Assembly: GCA_023146675.1 (NCBI GenBank)
Contig: JAGLBQ010000028.1
Coordinates: 1 to 32,018 of the forward strand
Origin: Cocleimonas sp.
GTDB lineage: Bacteria > Pseudomonadota > Gammaproteobacteria > Thiotrichales > Thiotrichaceae
Direction: 5' to 3'
Length of the DNA stretch: 32,018 nucleotides
Shown here: positions 12,471-25,802 of the stretch, one piece after another
Numbering within the stretch: position 1 is the stretch's first letter
How the letters are laid out: every line of letters starts with the position of its first letter
Translations under genes and position numbers: made by a program
The notes under the pieces: model-generated
The model's input: only the letters and a program-made list of their open reading frames with translations
What the model was told of the DNA's origin: nothing
Database searches by the model: none

Positions 12471-14945
12471 TCAAGTCAAAGCTTTCGCGCCATCAATAAA
12501 CCCCTGAATCTCATCAATACTAGGTAGTGTGCTGCGCTTGGTTATATATTCATGGACGGTAGAAATTTCTTGTAATACATTATCAGCATTTGAGGCGGCA
12601 AGTTTGGTCGTTGTGTTAAAGCCTGCAAGTTCGAGCAATTCTGCCAAAATACCATCTACTCCTTTAATGCGAATTAGATCAGCATTATTTACCCAGCCAT
12701 GAACAACCCACTTCTCTTTACCTAAGCTTTTGGATAATAAATTAATGCCTGTATCGGTTGATGTTTTTGTGAGTAAGTCTTGGGTGGTTTTAATACCCAT
12801 GATGTAAAGTCGTCTATCATCTTCGTTTGATATGGATTGAATAGCATCAATGGGAAAGTTTGATTCTTCTGCATCAGGGTAATGCGTTAAACTTTCTTTC
12901 GCCTGACTTAAACCATCTTTAGCTTTCTCAATTCCTGACATTGCCAGCTCTGCAATTCCTGCTGAAGCGAACATGCCTTTAATGCCATTGCTAGAGTTTT
13001 CATTGCTATCTTGATTATGATTGTAAGATTTTATGGAATCCTTTGCATCAGATGCTTTGTGAACAATTTCTTCTTTAGCACTATGGATTCCTTCTTTTGC
13101 CTTGTCAAAACTAGACTTTAATTTGTCAGAAACACCAGAGGATTCAAACTTTTCTTTTATATCTGAAAAGACATTTTTTTCTTCTGGTATGGCATTTTTT
13201 TGCACAACATGATCAACAGGTGCTGTTGTTATAGCGTCTTTTGTGTCTGATATTTTTTGTGATAGTTCATTGGGCGTTATTTTTTTCTTTACTTTATTTT
13301 GTTCTGCTGTTACTGGAGTAGACCGTATTTTTTCCTTCTTCGGTGTATTTGGTGCATAGTCCAGCGGTGCTTTGATGCTTTCTACCGCACTATCTTTTAC
13401 AGTTGAAACTTTGTCGAGTAGGTCTTTTTTACCTGCTTTTGCTTTATCAAAAGCAGATGTTAACTTGTCAGAAACAGCAGAGGATTCAAATTTTTCTTCT
13501 GGGTTGGTATTTTTTTGATCAATAGGTGCTGTTGTTATAGCGTCTTTTGTGTCTGATATTTTTTGTGATAGTTCATTGGGCGTTATTTTTTTCTTTACTT
13601 TATTTTGTTCTGTTGTTGCTGGAGTAGGCTGTGTTTTTTCCTTCTTCGGTGTATTTGGTGCATAGTCCAGCGGTGCTTTGATGCTCTCTACCGCACTATC
13701 TTTTACTGTTGAAGCATTGTCGAGCAGGTCTTCTTTACTTGCTTTTTCTTTATCAAAGCCAGATATTGATTTATCTGAAAGGATACTTTTTTCTTCTGGT
13801 TTGGCATTTTTCTGATCAATAGCTGTTGTTACAGCGTCTTTTGTATCTGACGTTTTCTGTGATAGCTCATCGGGTGTTATTTTTTGCTTTACTTTATTCT
13901 GCTTTGCTGGAGTAGGCTTAATTTCTTCCTTTTTAGATATATTTTTTGCATAGTCCAGCGGGGCTTTGATTGTTTCTAAGGCACTATCTTTTACCGTTGA
14001 AACTTTGTCGAGTAGGCTTTTTTTACTTGATTCTTCTGACGGTGCAGTAATGTTATCGCTATTAACAGGTTTAGCCTGATTCAAATCAGGTTCTGCTTTA
14101 TTTTCTGTTTCTGCATGTGAAAGGAGATCACTGTCTTTAGCTAATTGTTTTTTTAGCTTGTCTTCTTTAGTTGCAAGATCTTTTTTTAGTGTTTTCTGAA
14201 GAGTGTTTGCCTGTTGTAAACGGGTCTCAGCTTTTTCTTTTTCGACTAATGCATTGGATATTTGTTCTTCTTTTTCTTCCAGTTGTTCGGTTAGTTTTTT
14301 CTCTTTTATCGCAAAGCCTTTGGTTAAATTATCAACCTGTAACTCTCCTTTTCCCAAGTCTTTCTCGATATCAACGAGCTTATTAGTCGCATGATCAAGA
14401 TCAGTTTTGGTTGATTTTAATTTTGTCTCTAAGGTTGTATTTTTTTGTTGATATTCTTTTAGTCTGTTTTGTGTGTCTTTTTCTAGTAGAGACAATTGTG
14501 AAGAAGAGTGTTCCAGTTTCTTCTCTAGATCAATACTGGAGCTTTGTTGATCATCTTCATACTCCGATATTTTGCTATCAAACTGCGCCATGCTCATGGC
14601 GAGTTCTTCATCTTTTTGTGCGAGTAATGACTGCTGCTTATGTGTTTCCTCATCCGCAGTAGCCAGTTTTATCGTTAAACGCTCAAGCTTTTGGTTGTAG
14701 GTATGCTTTTGAGTTTCTATTTTACTTTCAAGTCTTTCTTTTTCATGGGTTACACCAGAAAGCTTATTTATTTTGCTGGCATAGCTATTGCGCTCTTGAC
14801 TGAGCGCATCGTATTTATCTTGCCACTTTTCATTAAGCGTATTCAGTTTCTTTTTACCACCTCCACGCAGTAACCACCCCAGTAAACCCGCAACCAAAGC
14901 AGTGATTAGAAGGCATAACCAAATTTGTGATAGTAAGTAAGCCAT
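12471..14945 (-). CDS. Membrane-anchored coiled-coil protein with tandem repeats and DUF4332-like C-terminal domain
   Basis: N-term TM (LLSQIWLCLLITALVAGLLGWLLRGG), ~250 aa coiled coil, three ~100-aa repeats, C-term DAIQSISNEDDRRLYIMGIKTTQDLLTKTSTDTGINLLSKSLG...VNNADLIRIKGVDGILAELLELAGFNTTTKLAASNADNV resembling DUF4332 (HhH-like). Confidence 0.85.
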   Translation of the reverse strand: MAYLLSQIWLCLLITALVAGLLGWLLRGGGKKKLNTLNEKWQDKYDALSQERNSYASKINKLSGVTHEKERLESKIETQKHTYNQKLERLTIKLATADEETHKQQSLLAQKDEELAMSMAQFDSKISEYEDDQQSSSIDLEKKLEHSSSQLSLLEKDTQNRLKEYQQKNTTLETKLKSTKTDLDHATNKLVDIEKDLGKGELQVDNLTKGFAIKEKKLTEQLEEKEEQISNALVEKEKAETRLQQANTLQKTLKKDLATKEDKLKKQLAKDSDLLSHAETENKAEPDLNQAKPVNSDNITAPSEESSKKSLLDKVSTVKDSALETIKAPLDYAKNISKKEEIKPTPAKQNKVKQKITPDELSQKTSDTKDAVTTAIDQKNAKPEEKSILSDKSISGFDKEKASKEDLLDNASTVKDSAVESIKAPLDYAPNTPKKEKTQPTPATTEQNKVKKKITPNELSQKISDTKDAITTAPIDQKNTNPEEKFESSAVSDKLTSAFDKAKAGKKDLLDKVSTVKDSAVESIKAPLDYAPNTPKKEKIRSTPVTAEQNKVKKKITPNELSQKISDTKDAITTAPVDHVVQKNAIPEEKNVFSDIKEKFESSGVSDKLKSSFDKAKEGIHSAKEEIVHKASDAKDSIKSYNHNQDSNENSSNGIKGMFASAGIAELAMSGIEKAKDGLSQAKESLTHYPDAEESNFPIDAIQSISNEDDRRLYIMGIKTTQDLLTKTSTDTGINLLSKSLGKEKWVVHGWVNNADLIRIKGVDGILAELLELAGFNTTTKLAASNADNVLQEISTVHEYITKRSTLPSIDEIQGFIDGAKALT
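13218..14040. repeat. Three tandem in-frame repeats (~306, ~294, ~220 bp) inside the DUF4332-like gene
   Basis: 89 bp identical between 13218-13306 and 13524-13612; third, diverged copy from ~13820. Confidence 0.9.
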
Positions 14946-15865
14946 TATTGCTTGTCCTCAATTGTAATTTCAATACGACGATTTCTAGCTCGACCAACAT
15001 TTGTTTTATTGCTGGCTACAGGTTCGCTAGATCCATGTCCTTGTGCCGTTAAACGTTTAGAGTCAATACGCTGATCGATAAGATACTTCATCACAGCCTT
15101 GGCACGCCCATGACTCAATTTTTTATTAAGTGATGCTTTTCCTGTAGAGTCTGAATGCCCATGAATGACTAGGTTGAAGCTACCGCATTCCTTAGCTGCT
15201 AAGGCTAGCTTATTAAGTACCCTGATACTGTTTTTCTGCACAGAATCACTAGAGGTATTAAAGTAGATAGGCGTTTTAAGTATCTGGTTAAATTTTTTCT
15301 GACAATCTTTTGATGCTTTTACTTGTTTTATAGGTGCTTCCTGAGCGGCTTCTTTTTCCTGAGACTCATCTTGTTTTACCGATATTTCTTTTGTTATTTC
15401 TGCTTTTTGAGTTTTATTCTGTTTTACGGGAGGCTCTATTGTGGGAGTATTTTTAGTTTTTTGTGTATCTTCTACTGAATTATCATCAGAATCAGTAGTT
15501 TGTTCTTTTGGCTGTTCTATATTTTTTGTATCAACCTGAGGACTGTTATTTTGATCTGAATCTTGAGGGGTTGCAGTACTGTTAGTAACAGTCAGTTGAT
15601 TCTCTATGAGGTTGTAACCATTAATACGCACAGCTTGATCAGCCGCATCTTTTGCTTCCTTGTTAGGAGCAGAGCCCGTTAGGGTAATATCGCGACCATC
15701 GACAGCAAGATTGACCCATCCTAGATTTTGCTTATCCAGTGCTTCCTGTGCGCGTGTATTAATATCGCTTTGAATAGTCGTTGCGGTGTTCATTTTGTGG
15801 GAGCAGTAATAGCCTAATAAGGCAGTAGGTATGAGTAATAATAAGAGAAGTAAAAATTTTTTCAT
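14945..15865 (-). CDS. BON-domain plus OmpA-family C-terminal (peptidoglycan-binding) protein
   Basis: BON-like ALDKQNLGWVNLAVDGRDITLTGSAPNKEAKDAADQAVRINGYNLIENQLTV; OmpA core PIYFNTSSDSVQ...LVIHGHSDSTGKASLNKKLSHGRAKAVMKYLIDQRIDSKRLTAQGHGSSEPVASNKTNVGRARNRRIEI; TAATG overlap with the next gene. Confidence 0.93.
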   Translation of the reverse strand: MKKFLLLLLLLIPTALLGYYCSHKMNTATTIQSDINTRAQEALDKQNLGWVNLAVDGRDITLTGSAPNKEAKDAADQAVRINGYNLIENQLTVTNSTATPQDSDQNNSPQVDTKNIEQPKEQTTDSDDNSVEDTQKTKNTPTIEPPVKQNKTQKAEITKEISVKQDESQEKEAAQEAPIKQVKASKDCQKKFNQILKTPIYFNTSSDSVQKNSIRVLNKLALAAKECGSFNLVIHGHSDSTGKASLNKKLSHGRAKAVMKYLIDQRIDSKRLTAQGHGSSEPVASNKTNVGRARNRRIEITIEDKQ

Positions 15866-16303
15866 CAGATCTCCTGAAACTAATGTGAGCTGGAGGTGGT
15901 CACATTGTGAGTATCTATTATGATTAAGGTAATAAGTAAATGCTAATGTACTAATATTATTACTATTAATTCACCGCTCGTATGGTCATTAGTACACTAT
16001 ATCCTATTGTAATGCTTTTCGCTGGTTATTATCTAGACAAAAAGTCTAATTATATAACACTAAGGTTAATTAATTTTATTATCTTTATTAGAAATAGTTA
16101 TCAGTATGAAAATACTGAGTATTTTAGTAAATTAACTATAAATAACTGAGCTTTTTAACCATACTTTGTCGCTATAGCAAATACGGATTTAGAGGAGTCT
16201 CTTTATTGATAAACACTAGAGTCAATAGCCCTCATAATTTTAATTTATTACAGACCGCATAAGGTAATTTTTTTATTTATATTTAACCCAAATAGTGAGA
16301 AAA

Positions 16304-16822
16304 ATGGAATTTAATCAAAATAACTCAATCCTACTCCAATCTGTTTATCCTGATCTTAAGCGCTTAGCTTCGATTTATATGTCAAGGGAGCGAGCAGGGC
16401 ATACGTTATCGCCAACAGCACTCGTCAATGAAGCCTATTTAAAGCTGTGTTCCAATAAGAATATTGAAAGTGAGGATAAACAGCATTTTTTAGCGATTTG
16501 TGGGCGCTGTATTCGACAGGTATTAGTGGAGCACTCGCGCAAGAAAAATGCATTAAAACGTGGTGGTGACCTTATCTTTTCAACGTTGTATGAAGAATCA
16601 TGCGGCAATGATGTGGGTAAGGAAACAGATTATGCGGCATTGGATGAAGCATTGAGGCGTTTAGAGCAGTTAGATGAGATACAGGTGAGAGTGGTCGAGT
16701 TGCGTTTTTACTCAGGAAGGACAATTGAGGAAATCGCTACACTTCTTGACCTCTCAGAATCAACGATAAAGCGCAAATGGATGATGGCTAAAGCATGGTT
16801 GTACAAGGAAATAAATCAGTAG
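16304..16822 (+). CDS. ECF-type sigma-70 factor, of the type paired with Ser/Thr kinases (ECF43-like)
   Basis: Sigma2 YPDLKRLASIYMSRERAGHTLSPTALVNEAYLKL; sigma4 LDEIQVRVVELRFYSGRTIEEIATLLDLSESTIKRKWMMAKAWLYKEI; overlaps the kinase ORF. Confidence 0.9.
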   Translation: MEFNQNNSILLQSVYPDLKRLASIYMSRERAGHTLSPTALVNEAYLKLCSNKNIESEDKQHFLAICGRCIRQVLVEHSRKKNALKRGGDLIFSTLYEESCGNDVGKETDYAALDEALRRLEQLDEIQVRVVELRFYSGRTIEEIATLLDLSESTIKRKWMMAKAWLYKEINQ

Positions 16823-19068
16823 TAGAAGAAAAAACAAGTGAAGCAAAAGCCTATGCTCGCATAGAAAAATATTTTTTATCTGCTTTGGCAGTAGACAAGA
16901 AAAACCGAATCGAATGGTTAAATCATGCGCTAAGTGATGACTTAGATATACTCAAAGAAGTTAAGCTACTGCTGTGTGCACACCATGAAACAGATAGCTT
17001 TCTGGAAACCCCCGCGCCGGTGAAAGCCACTATTGATGACATGACTTCTCGCTGTCCTGATTTGGCAGGTAGACGGCTTGGGGTTTATGAGGTCATTACT
17101 AAAATAGCCACGGGTGGAATGGGGAGAATCTATTCTGCCAAACGTGTTGATGGCGAATATGAAAAAATGGTTGCCATTAAGGTGGTTGAGTACTCCAGCC
17201 TTGATACGGGGTTATTCCAGAAAGAGCGTCAATTATTGGCAGATTTCCAGCATCCTAATATTGTTACTTTGTTAGATGGTGGGACATTAAAAGAAGGTTT
17301 TCCCTACCTGGTCATGGAGCTGGTAGATGGACTGGCTATCAATCGTTATGTAAATTCAGCAGAGCTTTCAATTAAAGAAATAGTGACATTATGCTGTGAA
17401 CTTTGTGCAGTTGTTGATGATGCGCATCAGCAAGGAATTATTCACTGTGACTTAAAACCAGATAATATTTTAGTGATCAATAAAGGCAGCCGCAAAGGCA
17501 CGCTTAAACTACTTGATTTTGGTATCGCGCAAACTTTATCGCTGCGAAAAACAGAGGCTGATATTAAGCCAAGAGGGCTCACACCAGAATATGCCAGCCC
17601 ACAGTGTCATTACAATAAAGTGCCTCATGCGACCGATGATGTCTTTAGTCTTGGGGTGATTCTTGGGCAGCTACTCAGTGGACAGCCTCTTTCATTAATA
17701 CAAAAAACATCACAAATAAAAGAACACTATCAAGCGCCCGATATTAATGAGCTGGCAACGCATATTGAAGATAGAGAATTAGTACAAATTATGCGTAAAG
17801 CAACGGCGAATAAGCGCAGTGGGCGTTATCATTCTGCTAAGGCACTTCAAGATGATTTGCAAAACTGGTTAGATGAAAAGCCTGTTGCTGCTGCACAGGG
17901 AGGGATGATATATGCGCTAAGTAAATCGATACACCGTGTGCGATATATAATTTTTATTGTGGTTACTCTTGCATTATTGGCGGCGCTTATTGGGCAAATA
18001 TTAGGAGAGCATTATGAGTTCCAACAGAGCAGTGATTTACGTGAGCATAATGCAATTGATGCAGTTGATGATTTAAACACGTTATTATCAAGCATTCCTT
18101 ACACCCCTAAAGTAGAAAAAGAAGTAACGACATTAACACTTAATCTTCTGCAAAATTTACACAAGGCAACCCCCGATAGTCAAATAATTAAAAAACGCTA
18201 TGCAGATATACTAATTCGTATGGCGAATGTGAATGGGCATCCTTATTATTTGAATCTGGAGAATAAGGCAAAAACACGCAGACAGTATGAAAAAGCACTG
18301 GGTCTATACAAAGAGTTGGAAAATTTGGAAAGTAGTAAGCTAGATGAGTCAATACAGCAGTCAGCGATTGTTAACCAACGCTATATTGAACACAGGTTGG
18401 CAGGGTTTGAGATTTATGAGAAAGGGGAGAGTGATCCCAATACAATATTTCAGGCACAGAAAAAAATGATCCTAGTGTGGGAAAAGCTAGCCTCTCGAGA
18501 GTTTGTCAACTTACCCTCTAAACAACGACTATTGCTGATTAATATGCTATTAGAAAATGCATATGAAAGCCTGCGTATAACGCCCTATGTGGAAACATGG
18601 GCTTTACTGGGCAATGCAAAAAAGATGTTGGAAAATAATGATATTGATGTGGCTAACTCTTTAAATGAACACACTTATTTACAGGCATTTTATTATGAAA
18701 TAACAGGGCATTATTACTACCTACAAGGCAACGTGAATGCAGCACTGACTTCTTATAGCAAAATTAAGCGCAGTATCGCAGGTGATCAATTTTCAGGTCG
18801 CTATCGTTATTTACTCACTAGGGTTGATAGTGCATTTGCTTGTCTTGGCTATTTGCAAAAAAACAATACAATGCAACAGCAACACTTTAAATATTTTGAC
18901 TATGCGCGTGCTAATTTAGAAGCGTTAGCCAATGAATATACCAATGTACCTTTTTTGCAATATCGGTCTGACAATATGAATCAGCGACAAAATGTTAGAA
19001 CAGCTAAAGGGCAGAAAGCATTCTGTGCTAATCCAATCGAGTTTTTATTGCCATCTATGAAAATTTAA
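16795..19068 (+). CDS. Transmembrane Ser/Thr protein kinase with helical repeat (TPR-like) C-terminal region
   Basis: GGMGRIYSAKR, VAIKVV, HCDLKPDNIL, DFGIA, TPEYASPQC, DVFSLGVILGQLLSG; TM YIIFIVVTLALLAALIGQIL; N-term helical segment typical of sigma-linked kinases. Confidence 0.93.
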   Translation: MVVQGNKSVVEEKTSEAKAYARIEKYFLSALAVDKKNRIEWLNHALSDDLDILKEVKLLLCAHHETDSFLETPAPVKATIDDMTSRCPDLAGRRLGVYEVITKIATGGMGRIYSAKRVDGEYEKMVAIKVVEYSSLDTGLFQKERQLLADFQHPNIVTLLDGGTLKEGFPYLVMELVDGLAINRYVNSAELSIKEIVTLCCELCAVVDDAHQQGIIHCDLKPDNILVINKGSRKGTLKLLDFGIAQTLSLRKTEADIKPRGLTPEYASPQCHYNKVPHATDDVFSLGVILGQLLSGQPLSLIQKTSQIKEHYQAPDINELATHIEDRELVQIMRKATANKRSGRYHSAKALQDDLQNWLDEKPVAAAQGGMIYALSKSIHRVRYIIFIVVTLALLAALIGQILGEHYEFQQSSDLREHNAIDAVDDLNTLLSSIPYTPKVEKEVTTLTLNLLQNLHKATPDSQIIKKRYADILIRMANVNGHPYYLNLENKAKTRRQYEKALGLYKELENLESSKLDESIQQSAIVNQRYIEHRLAGFEIYEKGESDPNTIFQAQKKMILVWEKLASREFVNLPSKQRLLLINMLLENAYESLRITPYVETWALLGNAKKMLENNDIDVANSLNEHTYLQAFYYEITGHYYYLQGNVNAALTSYSKIKRSIAGDQFSGRYRYLLTRVDSAFACLGYLQKNNTMQQQHFKYFDYARANLEALANEYTNVPFLQYRSDNMNQRQNVRTAKGQKAFCANPIEFLLPSMKI

Positions 19069-19715
19069 ACAATCAGTGATATAACTTTTTTCAATTTTGG
19101 ATTGATAACTAAACATATAAATATCAATAGCTTATAATTAAAACAAGTGAAAGTTAGGCTGACCTAATTCTTATTCTACCTACGCATGTCAGTTATACCT
19201 TATTTAAATTATGTAGTGATTATCACTAATTGGAAAAATACTACCGTTTATCGCTGATAAGGGCTATTGGAAATTAATATCGGTGAATCAGGTACATAAT
19301 AGATGAGGAACAAGCATGAAATAATTTTTCAAATGATGACATAGAGTTTTTATACTCAAAAAATGGGCATAGCAATCCTTGGTTGAAGGTTCTCAGTTCT
19401 TAGTAGAGGTATTTCTACTCTACATGACGATTGAAATGATTTACTCAGAGGGCAAGAAGATAGTCTGCTCTTTTGATACAAGTCAGAGTTGGGAAGTTAT
19501 TCCGTGCATGTTCCAATGACATAGTTAGGACTGACGATTTAATAACATACGAAACAATAATGCAGTATTTTGTACCCAACCAAGGGGACAGATAGCAATT
19601 TCAGAGTTCTGGTTATTGAATCCTCAGTCTTTAGGTAATGGATTATCTACTATGCTAAATACTCGTAAATCATATAGATTTATGTTCTCAAGGATGAATT
19701 ATGTAGGATTTTATA

Positions 19716-20045
19716 ATGAAAAAAACAGCATTAAGTATAGTCTCAATCATTTCAATACTCTTAGTATCAGAACCCGTTCTAGCAGAAAATGCATCAATAA
19801 AAATACGTATTCAAAAGCAAGAATTGCGTATCCAAAAAGGATGCGATAAAGGACAGATAACCCATGGTGAAGAGCTAATTCTTAAAAATGAACAAAAAAA
19901 TATAAAAAAAATGATAAAAAAACTGTCGAGGGGGCGATCTTTTTCATCAGGAAGTAAAAATAAAGTACACACAGCATTGAATAGATCAAGCATTAATATT
20001 TTTAAAAAACGTTATAATAAACCGAAGCGAAAAGGGAGTAAGTAG
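19716..20045 (+). CDS. Small secreted, lysine/arginine-rich protein
   Basis: Signal peptide MKKTALSIVSIISILLVSEPVLA-EN; body IKIRIQKQELRIQKGCDKGQITHGEELILKNEQKNIKKMIKK resembles small RIxxQxxRIxxGxxSGxLTxxEA-type periplasmic proteins; SD-like AGGA 5'. Confidence 0.75.
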   Translation: MKKTALSIVSIISILLVSEPVLAENASIKIRIQKQELRIQKGCDKGQITHGEELILKNEQKNIKKMIKKLSRGRSFSSGSKNKVHTALNRSSINIFKKRYNKPKRKGSK

Positions 20046-20157
20046 GGAAAACGTTAGCTTATGTTTTTACACATTAAAATTAACGACTTGCATAATGTAT
20101 TTTTATATGCTGATAAAAATTAATATTTAATGGGGTAAATGTAATCTATTAGTTTTT

Positions 20158-20184
20158 ATGAAATAACTTTCCAAGTTATTTCAT
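20158..20184. terminator. Hairpin between convergent genes
   Basis: ATGAAATAACTT-TCC-AAGTTATTTCAT, 12-bp perfect stem. Confidence 0.65.
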
Positions 20185-20191
20185 GTGTTTA

Positions 20192-20524
20192 TTAGTCAGA
20201 GTTACGGACTTCTTTTTTTATTATTTTATTGTCTTGAAAAGTAATAAAGCATGCCACACGAAAGAAAGGACTGTTTTGAGTTTCAACTGATAAAGTGCCA
20301 TTATTTTCCTTCATATTAGAAAAAACTCTATATTTTAATTCCTTTGCTTTTGACATCACATTTTTATAATGGCTCTCCTCAGTAAAACTGTTGCAAAAAT
20401 CATTCGCTGGCTTGGAGTAAAACCATAAGGGAAGCCATACTAAGAATAAGAGAAATGATATTACTATAAATATTTTAAAAATAGATTTAAATATTCTTCT
20501 GAATATTGAAATGTCTTTTTCCAT
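20192..20524 (-). CDS. Hypothetical small single-TM protein
   Basis: 110 aa; TM FIVISFLLFLVWLPLWFY then soluble C-term domain. Confidence 0.6.
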   Translation of the reverse strand: MEKDISIFRRIFKSIFKIFIVISFLLFLVWLPLWFYSKPANDFCNSFTEESHYKNVMSKAKELKYRVFSNMKENNGTLSVETQNSPFFRVACFITFQDNKIIKKEVRNSD

Positions 20525-20633
20525 AACTTTATCACTTTATATTATTATCTTAAAGTTCGTCTCCAGCACTTTTTTGTTCTATAACTAACATATTTGAAGT
20601 ATTTACTGTAGTATCCAAACTAAATATATTTAA

Positions 20634-22742
20634 TTATTTCAAGTATCTGTTAAGAAAAATAGTGGTAACACGAGATGTTGATAATGACTGAGATTGTGAG
20701 CAATTATTTACATGTTGCGATATTATTTTTCTAGCAATACGTTCTGTTCTATTAGCACCCTCAGTTGATACAGGAAATTTTTTTTCTTTAGCGCAAAGCA
20801 GTTTCAATTTTGACAAATACATTGCAGCGATTGAGTTTAAACGTTTTCTAATGATTAATTCCTTTCCTTTTAATAGTTTTCTTTTATGTATTAGTGCATT
20901 ATTGCTTGATGCATCACTTTGTTGTTTTATAGCCTCTAATCCATCAAGCTTTTGTTTTAATTGAGTTGTGTGTTGATTGAAGGTTTTGCTGTAATTAACC
21001 AGTTGATGGATTGCTGTTTTTTGTTTTTGTTTTTGTTTGTCAATTTTAGTTTTGGCTTGATTCTGCTTTTGTCTTTCAAGCTCTGCTAGCATATTACGCT
21101 TTTTCTCAGCAGCATTACTTTTAGTAATATCCTGTTCTTCATTTTGTGGTCTATTGTGCTTCTTAAGCTTAGCAGGTGGTGTAATAGCGATAGGAGGGTT
21201 GTCTGCTTTTTCTTTTTCTCGTTGTTCCCTTATTTTATTATTTTCAAACTCCAATCGTCGTTGTTTAACGAGAGCTGCAAGACGTCTTTTTTCAGCCAAT
21301 TTTTTTGCTTCAATTTTTTCTAATTGTTTACGTTTTTTGTGTTCTTGTTCCAATGCTATTTTTCTAATTCTAAGCTGCTCCTCTTTATGTTTTTTTTGTT
21401 CCGCTATTTTTTGTTCTTGCTGCTTCCTTTTTTCATGATCTTGCTTAATTAACAATAATCGAGCCTTTTTCTGTTTTTTCTTAGCAAGCTTAAGCTTTTG
21501 TTGCTGCTTTAATAATGCTAGTTTTTTTTGTGCCTTTAATTCCTTTTTCTCCTCAATTAATCGCTGTTTCTCAGCTTCAGCCGCCTCTGCTTTTCTATTA
21601 GCCTGCTCTTGTTGTTTTAAAGTTTCAGCTTGTGCTTGCAGGTGCTTTATCTTTATCGCTTCTTGCTTAGCTTTTTCTTCGGCAAGTAAGGTTTTGTTTA
21701 GGCTTATAGCCATTTTTTCTTGAATATTATTTGCAATAAATTGTGTGTTAGTCTGAATTTTTGGAGGTTCTTGACTTTTACTTTCAACCAAAGCAGCTGA
21801 ACCAGTTTTTTCCTCCTGACCTTGCCAAAAATAATAGCTACCAGCCGTAGCGGTAGTGATTGCAAATAAGGACAAAATAAATGTTGCCATCCTTCTTTTT
21901 GGTTTTTCTCTTTTTATTTTAAGAGGCTCAGTTGAGCCTGCTACCTGAGACTTTATTTTTGTTGGATTGACTTGTGCTTGTTTTTTCTTGAAAAGTAACA
22001 AACAATTATTGTCAGTTTGCTCTGTATCACCCTTAGATTCAAATTGGCGATAACACTTAATAATATTAGAATGTAAGCGAGCATTCGTTTTGGGGGTAGT
22101 ATAGCGATGGGATAATAAAGCCATCATTTCAAGGCGGTATTCTTCAATATCAAGAAGTTGAAAGGAAGGCTTAGCGTCATGCTCAAGATCAACGAGTAAG
22201 TTTGATAGTGAAATATTCGTTGGTTTTTTAATCTCACAATGATAGCGACGATTTACCAAGGCAATATGGGTATTACCAAGAAGAAGAAATATAAGTTGTT
22301 TTTTATATTGATAAAGTAACACAATCGATGGATCATATAGTGCTAAAATCTGCTGCTGCTCATGCGTTGTTTTATTGTCATTACTGAACTGATCAATAGC
22401 TACTAAGGAACCACTTTTAGTCTTTTTATTTTTAATTGAATCCAGCAAAACAGCTGCTTTCCACTGCTTACTAAATAATGTTAAAAACACCTCAGAAAAG
22501 TTAAGCTCTTTTTCTAATATATCAGAAAAGGCACGTTGAGCTACTTTGATAGCGAGTTCCGCACCCCGAGTGCTTCTAGAAGTAACCAATCTATCCTCAT
22601 TATTTTCAGGCAGATGCTCACTCGCGATGACAAACAAACCTTGAGACTTATCAATACAAAATGGCTGTGTAAAATGATGAAAATTAGGATTGGAAAGAGT
22701 ATTGCTATCAAAAAGCGTCCAATGCGATAATTGAGATGGCAT
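20634..22742 (-). CDS. Membrane protein with putative degenerate PP2C-like N-terminus, TM and long K/E/Q-rich coiled coil
   Basis: N-term SHWTLFDSNTLSN...GLFVIASEHLPENNEDRLVTSRSTRGAELAIKVAQRAF, SGSLVAI, LLLGNTHIAL, DNNCLLLFK laid out like PP2C motifs; TM MATFILSLFAITTATAGSYYF; then ~350 aa charged helix. CDS itself is secure, PP2C relation tentative. Confidence 0.7.
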   Translation of the reverse strand: MPSQLSHWTLFDSNTLSNPNFHHFTQPFCIDKSQGLFVIASEHLPENNEDRLVTSRSTRGAELAIKVAQRAFSDILEKELNFSEVFLTLFSKQWKAAVLLDSIKNKKTKSGSLVAIDQFSNDNKTTHEQQQILALYDPSIVLLYQYKKQLIFLLLGNTHIALVNRRYHCEIKKPTNISLSNLLVDLEHDAKPSFQLLDIEEYRLEMMALLSHRYTTPKTNARLHSNIIKCYRQFESKGDTEQTDNNCLLLFKKKQAQVNPTKIKSQVAGSTEPLKIKREKPKRRMATFILSLFAITTATAGSYYFWQGQEEKTGSAALVESKSQEPPKIQTNTQFIANNIQEKMAISLNKTLLAEEKAKQEAIKIKHLQAQAETLKQQEQANRKAEAAEAEKQRLIEEKKELKAQKKLALLKQQQKLKLAKKKQKKARLLLIKQDHEKRKQQEQKIAEQKKHKEEQLRIRKIALEQEHKKRKQLEKIEAKKLAEKRRLAALVKQRRLEFENNKIREQREKEKADNPPIAITPPAKLKKHNRPQNEEQDITKSNAAEKKRNMLAELERQKQNQAKTKIDKQKQKQKTAIHQLVNYSKTFNQHTTQLKQKLDGLEAIKQQSDASSNNALIHKRKLLKGKELIIRKRLNSIAAMYLSKLKLLCAKEKKFPVSTEGANRTERIARKIISQHVNNCSQSQSLSTSRVTTIFLNRYLK

Positions 22743-22937: not shown

Positions 22938-25802
22938 TTAAGAGGCTTTTTTAAGTCGGGTGCATTTTAGACCAAATTGACGTTTCAACAAACCCAGATA
23001 AATTAAAAAGAAAGTAAATAAGCTATCAAAAGAGCCACCTGATTTATCATCTGCTACGATAGTTTTTTCTTCAGAAATTTTAATTTTTTCATCATCATTA
23101 ATAATAGTTGCTGTAGCGCTATTATTTATCAGTATCACATTGCTGCTAGGATTAGATAATAATAGCCAGAAGGTTTCATTATCTTCTATTAATTTATCGG
23201 CTACTATATCAATACTGATGGTTGCTGATATTTTTCCTGCAGAGATGGATAATGTCCCGCTATCTTTAAAAAAGTCACTGCCTGCGTGTGCTGTGTCATT
23301 AATAGTAACGTATTTTATACTGGTATTAGTCTTTGCTATTTGGTTTAATTTAATAGTAAAAATGGCTTTGCTTATCCCTAAATCACCTTCAATAATTGAA
23401 ATATTAGGTATTGTTACAGTGATGGGGGCAGTAATCGTGTCATTATCGATCACCATACCTTTTGTAATCAGATCACCTGTAGATTTAAATTGAATATTTT
23501 GTGGCGAACTTAGGGTTAAGTGATAAGTTTTATCATCCTCAGCAATGGTATTGCCAATGATCAATTGTGATATGGTTGCGTTGATTTGTCCCGTTAAAAT
23601 ATTGATTAATCCGCTTTGTATTTTGGCATTATTTTTACTGTCATGAATAGTATATTTAATCGATGAGTCTTCCGTTGCTGCTTTATTAAGACTGATAATA
23701 TAGCGCAGTGTTTTAGTGTCTGAATCGCCTTCTGTAATGGTAGGAGCATTGACGCTAGCGATTGGTTTATTCTCTGTTTGTAAGAATTCATTTATTTCTA
23801 CTTCACCCTCAGACAGTGCAAAGAAAATATTATTGCTACAGGCAACCATCATACGCGCATCGATCATTGCCCTTGTTGTGTCAGGGATGGTTAAAAACTG
23901 TGATCCATCATTTGGGGTGAGCATTAATAAATCCTGCGATGCACCCTCTTTTGTTAGTAGTTTTATATCAACATGATTACAGTTTACAGGTGCCCAGCTT
24001 GAGCCTGCTTCATTCCATCTGACTTCAATCTTTTCATTGCGATGATACAAAGAAAAATTTGTTTGTGAGATCACTTTAAATGGATTACCACTTGTCATTA
24101 TTTTTGTGTCTGCACGTGCTATGCCGCCATTATTATCTCGAACGGTAACAGCAAATTTCAAATCACGCTTGGTTAGGGGGAGTTGTTCGCCTTTTATTGG
24201 AGACTCACCAAATAATGTTGCTAGTTGTGGGAAGAATCGCTGATCAGAGTTAGAGGGTAAATAGCTACGAAATAGGGGGTTGTCACCCGCATCAATACCG
24301 ACCTTAACGGCTGTTCCATTGCTATCTATTTGATCCCATGTATAACTTAATGTATCGCCATCAATATCGGTCGCATGACTGCTTAATTGAAAAGGTGTAT
24401 TAACAGGAATAAAAAAGGGGGTGCCGACGGTTAGGGTTGGATTGTTATTATTACTCGCGTCTTTAACGCCGCAATTTGCTTTGCCGCTGTAGCGTGTATA
24501 GTGATTGATTTGATCGATACTCACCGCATTAAAAACAGCGTCTGAGTTGCGTTGTAAATTATCTGCGCCACAAATTCCCGCATAAGACATCACGGTGCTG
24601 CCACTACCAGGTTCTACGGCTGCGTCATGTTCACGGTTTCCGCCGCTACAGTTTTGCTCAATACTATTAAAGGTATGTGTTGCACCTAATTGATGTCCTA
24701 TTTCATGTGATACATAATCTATATTAAAACTATCGCCATAAGGACTAGGTGATCCTGTAATCCCTCCCGCTTTATGTGATTCTTGATTTGATCGACAAAC
24801 ACCGCTAAGTATTGCGAGACCACCAGTGCTTGCACCTCCAAAAAGATGACCAAGATCATAATTAGCATTACCAATGACCCTTTCCATATTCGTAATATTT
24901 TCATCCATCATATCGTGAGGATTGTCATTGGAAAAAGGATCAGAGGTGGGGTTTAGGTAGATTATTTTATCATTATTGGCAACTAATATAAATTTTATCC
25001 CAAGGTCGCGCTCATAAATCTGATTGACTCGGTCAATTGTTGTCAACATAGCACTTAATGTAGATGCTTTAGTGCCGCCATTTAATGCACTGTATTCTGC
25101 ACTAGCTGCTAGAGCTAAGCGATAAGTAATCAGTTTATTGGATGTTCTAGCTTGTACTTTTAATGACGTTGACCAGCTGTTTTTGGATAAAGGTGGTTGA
25201 ATGACAATCTCATCATAATCTGTTGTACGTTGGAATAGTTGCTTATTTTTTTGTTTACTAAAGCTATTATATAACGTGTTTGACCTTCCTGAATTTAATG
25301 ATTTATTTGCGAAGGTTTTATCAGGATCAATAAAAATTGTGTCAGCATTTTCCAATATCAACATGGCATGGAAACCTGCTTCAGTAAAATTAATGCGACC
25401 ATGAATATTTTTACCGTTAGCCGCTTTGACTTTCCATGTTTTAAATTCAGGAAACTTGTCTGCTAATGCTTTTTCCATTATGTAGTGTTCCGTTGCAATA
25501 ACAGCTAGCATCGAGCCATCAGGAAGTGGTAAATTTATTATTTTATTCTGGGTGGTATTTCTTGCCACCTGCTGTTCAGACGCAACTTTATATTGTGTAT
25601 TTTCACTAGAAAAAAGCTGTTGGCGCAAAGCTGTCTCATCTAAACTCAATAAGCGAGCAGAGTAGGGTGCTGATACTCCTGACACGGAAGATCTTAATTG
25701 TTTGATGGATGAGTCATTATGATTAGAAATATCTTTCCAGATGGGGTTGGCAAAAATATTAGTCGATACAAATAGGCTTAATGCAATAAGGGTTCTGCGC
25801 AT
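22938..25802 (-). CDS. Secreted reprolysin-like (M12B) zinc metalloprotease with Calx-beta repeats and GlyGly-CTERM-like tail
   Basis: Signal peptide; HEIGHQLGATH zinc motif and downstream STVMSYAGICG Met-turn; two Calx-beta-like repeats (ITEGDSDTKTLRYIISLN..., IIEGDLGISKAIFTIKLN...TATIINDDE); C-term SGGSFDSLFTFFLIYLGLLKRQFGLKCTRLKK. Confidence 0.9.
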   Translation of the reverse strand: MRRTLIALSLFVSTNIFANPIWKDISNHNDSSIKQLRSSVSGVSAPYSARLLSLDETALRQQLFSSENTQYKVASEQQVARNTTQNKIINLPLPDGSMLAVIATEHYIMEKALADKFPEFKTWKVKAANGKNIHGRINFTEAGFHAMLILENADTIFIDPDKTFANKSLNSGRSNTLYNSFSKQKNKQLFQRTTDYDEIVIQPPLSKNSWSTSLKVQARTSNKLITYRLALAASAEYSALNGGTKASTLSAMLTTIDRVNQIYERDLGIKFILVANNDKIIYLNPTSDPFSNDNPHDMMDENITNMERVIGNANYDLGHLFGGASTGGLAILSGVCRSNQESHKAGGITGSPSPYGDSFNIDYVSHEIGHQLGATHTFNSIEQNCSGGNREHDAAVEPGSGSTVMSYAGICGADNLQRNSDAVFNAVSIDQINHYTRYSGKANCGVKDASNNNNPTLTVGTPFFIPVNTPFQLSSHATDIDGDTLSYTWDQIDSNGTAVKVGIDAGDNPLFRSYLPSNSDQRFFPQLATLFGESPIKGEQLPLTKRDLKFAVTVRDNNGGIARADTKIMTSGNPFKVISQTNFSLYHRNEKIEVRWNEAGSSWAPVNCNHVDIKLLTKEGASQDLLMLTPNDGSQFLTIPDTTRAMIDARMMVACSNNIFFALSEGEVEINEFLQTENKPIASVNAPTITEGDSDTKTLRYIISLNKAATEDSSIKYTIHDSKNNAKIQSGLINILTGQINATISQLIIGNTIAEDDKTYHLTLSSPQNIQFKSTGDLITKGMVIDNDTITAPITVTIPNISIIEGDLGISKAIFTIKLNQIAKTNTSIKYVTINDTAHAGSDFFKDSGTLSISAGKISATISIDIVADKLIEDNETFWLLLSNPSSNVILINNSATATIINDDEKIKISEEKTIVADDKSGGSFDSLFTFFLIYLGLLKRQFGLKCTRLKKAS

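Follow-up and report, generated by a model that had tools for sequence, protein, structure and literature searches.

ECF43 sigma factors lack the acidic DAED motif of region 2.2, and the threonine found there instead, within the phospho-acceptor motif QTTA/STTA, is the residue that the linked kinase phosphorylates (PMC8999054, PMC13147305). Of the described members, EcfP of Vibrio parahaemolyticus, which is linked to the membrane kinase PknT, controls polymyxin resistance (PMC8999054). EcfK of Xanthomonas citri is encoded as a gene pair with the membrane kinase PknS (PMC13147305, PDB 9EED), and a pair of the same kind is present in the window analyzed here, by which we mean the whole stretch of 32,018 nucleotides. 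The window comes from the genome (2.6 Mb, 405 contigs, 84.8% complete) of a marine, Leucothrix-like bacterium. Among its named relatives, the nearest is a MAG entered as Leucothrix mucor HyVt-493, with a sigma factor 96% identical to that of the window.

Gene order, conserved residues, a common promoter motif and linkage are read directly from the sequences; we infer phosphorylation of the sigma factor, its recognition of the motif and the role of the small secreted protein. With a probability of about 0.7, the locus encodes a circuit in which phosphorylation switches an ECF43-type sigma factor, with the small secreted protein as target and the neighboring OmpA/DUF4332 and PP2C-like genes left outside. 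Open reading frames and domain searches confirmed the presence and placement of the sigma factor, kinase, BON-OmpA, DUF4332, basic peptide and PP2C-like genes, all of which had been named in a preliminary description. The features are as follows.

12471..14945, minus strand: protein with transmembrane (TM) segment, coiled coil and DUF4332 (PF14229, E = 1.7e-20)
14945..15865, minus strand: BON-OmpA protein (OmpA, E = 4.6e-19; BON, 26.9 bits, just below the cut-off of 27.0)
16147..16176, plus strand: candidate ECF-type promoter of the sigma gene, TGAGC (-35)-N18-CGCTATA (-10)
16304..16822, plus strand: ECF43-type sigma factor (TIGR02999, PF07638), with a GTG start listed at 16295
16795..19068, plus strand: membrane Ser/Thr kinase (Pkinase, E = 2e-34)
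19160..19187, plus strand: candidate second promoter copy, for the small gene, TGACC-N18-CGCAT
19243..19302, plus strand: extra conserved non-coding blocks past the second promoter copy and before the small gene, a ACCGTTTATC..TGATAA palindrome and TCAGGTACATAAT (-10-like)
19716..20045, plus strand: small secreted basic helical protein of 109 aa, the kept third member of the sigma-kinase locus
20634..22742, minus strand: protein with degenerate PP2C-like N-terminus (remote PP2C_2 similarity), TM segment and coiled coil

The locus was compared with a set of 64 genomes of the order in eight genera (g1 to g8), where g1 is the window's genus and consists of nine genomes, the window's own (G000) and G019-G026. 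The sigma factor matched TIGR02999, which we take to correspond to ECF43, with 164.5 bits (cut-off 126, E = 2.4e-48), and PF07638 with 148.7 bits (E = 2.2e-43). Its translation more likely begins with the ATG at 16304 than with the GTG at 16295, because most relatives start at MEFNQNN or equivalent. At the DAED site of region 2.2 the window sigma factor reads SPTA, with the threonine (T38) encoded at 16415-16417, and in 23 of 24 family sequences this site is xPT[AVE] (e.g. SPTA, CPTA, TPTV), whereas the most distant one has QATD. Accordingly, DAED is replaced and the threonine is invariant in the alignment of the 24 family sequences, as a threonine also replaces the acidic motif in EcfK; EcfP has STTA where the window has SPTA, and both are accompanied by a linked membrane kinase. 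T94 in the linker (codon 16583-16585) was invariant in this alignment too and may be the counterpart of T106 of EcfK, which itself lies outside the 24 sequences.

A kinase gene was found downstream of the sigma gene in 23 of the 24 sigma loci, and in the window the two genes overlap by 28 bp. The kinase has an N-terminal extension of about 97 aa, a kinase domain (98-340), one TM helix (384-400) and a TPR-like periplasmic domain of about 350 aa with a conserved GHPYxLN and, at the C-terminus, FCxxPxxFLLP; PknS has these four parts too, its periplasmic domain being of the TPR kind. TPR matches were obtained in the periplasmic domains of relatives, and the search with this domain of the window kinase alone gave none. 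The motifs ATGGMG (the first Gly of GxGGMG is replaced), VAIK, HCDLKPDN, DFG and TPEYASP, together with the TM helix, identify a Hanks-type kinase, in which K129, D219, N224 and DFG241 are retained. It is of the non-RD type, since HCD is found here and in all 23 kinases encoded beside an ECF43-type sigma factor in the family, in contrast to HRD in PknS (9EED). The best PDB match was 9EED itself (X. citri PknS 1-364, E = 6.5e-44), with the N-terminal extension included in the alignment. The TIGR02999 match, the threonine in place of DAED, the gene overlap and the PknS match thus bear out the earlier proposal that an ECF43-type sigma factor is paired with a membrane Ser/Thr kinase.

The small secreted protein gene followed the kinase gene in all the 13 testable loci from three genera (g1, 7/7; g4, 5/5; g3, 1/1). 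The testable g1 genomes were G000, G019, G020, G022, G023, G025 and G026; the contigs of G021 and G024 end between the two genes and lie outside the count. The protein belongs to a two-repeat family with the pattern [RI..Q..RI..G...GxLT..E..L]. A Pfam search with the window protein found no family, a profile search of PDB sequences produced no convincing match, and its structure model was helical and weak (pLDDT 60.5), with no match at E < 0.001 when this model was compared with PDB folds. Genus g5 has the sigma factor and kinase without the small gene, and relatives of the small protein beyond the window's family are mostly found in the absence of ECF43 genes; both observations count against the circuit reading. 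A general tie of the family to ECF43 was rejected, as it was not seen outside the window's family in 369 gammaproteobacterial genomes, where only G427 and the window genome held both. In genus g2 (L082-L085, L087), relatives of the small protein, some of them with two repeats, are encoded divergently from a different ECF sigma operon, and the family has thus come together with ECF operons more than once. Other relatives in Gammaproteobacteria (L143, L150) lie beside a TetR-like regulator, and at L150 also beside an exporter-like gene (both named from translations). In g3 and g4, secreted DUF4360 proteins (PF14273) are encoded between the kinase and the small gene, and in g4 also after it (L050-L056, L060); the window has no DUF4360 gene, and in g1 such genes are located elsewhere.

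Alignment of the regions upstream of the sigma gene gave a single block, TATAAATAnnTGAGCTTTTT...TCGCTATA, common to the nine g1 genomes; G024, where the OmpA gene is missing at this place, has it as well. The pattern counted was TGA[GC]C-N18-CGC[AT], and exact copies preceded the sigma gene in 9/9 g1 loci and the small gene in 14 of 17 regions of g1 and g4 (0.02 expected from shuffles), although the motif was spotted by eye and counted afterwards, and genomes of one genus are not independent. The -35 and -10 elements recur, equally spaced, in the g4 regions before the small gene. L049 is one base off the motif; in L060 (g3), where a DUF4360 gene precedes the small gene, a variant lies in front of the DUF4360 gene; and L048 (G019) has no motif before the small gene, which counts against the circuit reading. 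Of the 711 ORFs that were at least 95 aa long and had sufficient upstream DNA, the exact motif was present within 350 nt upstream in 24. These comprised nine sigma genes, small genes in 11 linked copies plus one unlinked paralogue (L089), and three other ORFs. Elsewhere, genome-wide scans of the g1 genomes gave scattered, mostly weaker matches.

The distance from motif to start of the small gene is 157-342 nt in most relatives and 556 nt in the window, and the window's distance, with other conserved blocks in between, is likewise a point against the circuit reading. A longer gap between kinase and small gene places the copy about 540 to 700 nt away in the window and in two relatives. Within this gap, the ACCGTTTATC..TGATAA and TCAGGTACATAAT blocks are present in most or all of the nine g1 genomes, with some variants, and constitute a possible second promoter and operator; an Rfam search for an RNA element between kinase and small gene found no family above threshold. 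A strong motif copy also precedes a gene for a secreted, basic, cysteine-containing protein of 107-116 aa (L171; G000 contig C199, 9064-9384, minus strand), and this protein was rejected as a trans target, no relative being found in the other eight g1 genomes.

These counts bear on the view that sigma factor and kinase are the sole unit, with the small protein co-transcribed or a stable neighbor and the motif belonging to another ECF sigma factor. Other candidates for such a factor are present, since the genome has a second ECF43-type sigma and kinase pair (L057; G000 contig C1, 10726-13526), which lacks both the small gene and the promoter motif, as well as two further PF07638-matching sigma factors. 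Moreover, the exact motif is absent from the sigma genes of g3, g4 and g5 and from the second ECF43 copy, which counts against the circuit reading, and the g4 sigma genes have a conserved upstream block of their own, TTGGAGCTTT..TTGTTATC. Nevertheless, throughout g1 the sigma gene itself is preceded by the motif, and the small gene has it upstream in two genera whose upstream neighbors differ, and we regard the sole-unit view as unlikely. The preliminary description would have been contradicted had only sigma factor and kinase co-occurred; this outcome was not fully obtained, for the small protein accompanies them in every testable locus and has the motif in common with the sigma gene.

That description had in addition placed both the OmpA/DUF4332 pair and the PP2C-like protein in the regulon or among the structural partners. 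In a five-gene envelope module of this kind, the pair would serve as output or anchor, and the PP2C-like protein would either oppose the kinase or be its pseudophosphatase partner. The BON-OmpA and DUF4332 genes overlap by one base (TAATG), and the pair is divergent from the sigma gene, across a shared intergenic region of 429 bp, in six of the seven testable g1 genomes, which favors the module. However, the pair is missing beside the G024 sigma gene, adjoins the sigma gene in g1 only, and occurs without it at 15 or more loci from three genera (g1, g3 and g4); no reverse-strand motif was found in the shared intergenic region, and no copy points at the pair. On this linkage and motif absence, the pair was rejected as part of the regulon, and the comparison argues for a separate conserved module that is a neighbor of the circuit and is not supported as part of it. 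As for the PP2C-like protein, PP2C_2 matches in three of seven orthologues (best E = 0.0018) speak for the module, whereas the whole window protein gave E = 0.63 and 13.1 bits (cut-off 24), and the putative DG metal-binding motifs are replaced, the first by an invariant Glu (E42) and the second being absent, with positions judged by eye. A single-sequence structure model of the N-terminus was unusable (pLDDT 33). The gene adjoins the locus only in G000 and its nearest relative G020, is located elsewhere or on contigs without the sigma-kinase locus in five other g1 genomes, and has no TGA[GC]C-N18-CGC[AT] motif upstream. It was therefore dropped as a regulon member, and its distribution suggests that it is probably a chance neighbor. 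Hence, of the five-gene neighborhood proposed earlier, the co-occurrence of sigma factor, kinase and small protein held and that of OmpA/DUF4332 and the PP2C-like gene did not, and we consider the five-gene module very improbable. Between the small gene and the PP2C-like gene lies an extra 110-aa ORF with a TM segment (20192-20524, minus strand), which had no relatives in the loci compared. On its other side, the PP2C-like gene is accompanied by a gene for a secreted reprolysin-like metalloprotease with a Calx-beta domain (22938-25802, minus strand), and this pair is kept in G020 (L113).

In the circuit that we favor, the periplasmic TPR-like domain of the kinase would sense an envelope signal, and the cytoplasmic kinase domain would phosphorylate T38 of the SPTA site, and perhaps the linker T94 as well. 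Phosphorylation would restore the negative charge missing in the sigma factor and thereby allow binding to RNA polymerase. From the promoter at 16147-16176, the active sigma factor would then transcribe the operon to which its gene belongs, which would amount to autoregulation, and from the copy at 19160-19187 the small secreted protein gene. Because DUF4360 proteins are part of the sister-genus modules, the output may be a set of small secreted envelope proteins. The small protein may shield the envelope, influence the kinase or have its effect beyond the cell. A further speculation, which we hold to be rather doubtful, is that the small secreted protein binds the periplasmic TPR-like domain as ligand or brake and closes a feedback loop of sigma factor, kinase and secreted protein; we know of no such loop described for ECF43 systems.

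To our knowledge, few ECF43 circuits have known outputs, and no ECF43 target promoter was found in the open literature searched. The comparison across genera provides a concrete promoter, TGA[GC]C-N18-CGC[AT], and a likely direct target, a family of small secreted proteins without Pfam assignment. With these, one can test in a new lineage what kinase-switched sigma factors respond to and what they are for, and secreted DUF4360 proteins are tied to the same sigma-kinase module, of which they are members in g3 and g4 and not in the window. Unlike for EcfK/PknS, no T6SS genes were seen in the window, and a small secreted protein is linked instead. Taken together, the sigma-kinase core belongs to the known type of circuit represented by EcfK/PknS and EcfP/PknT, and the small secreted protein with its promoter is the new part.
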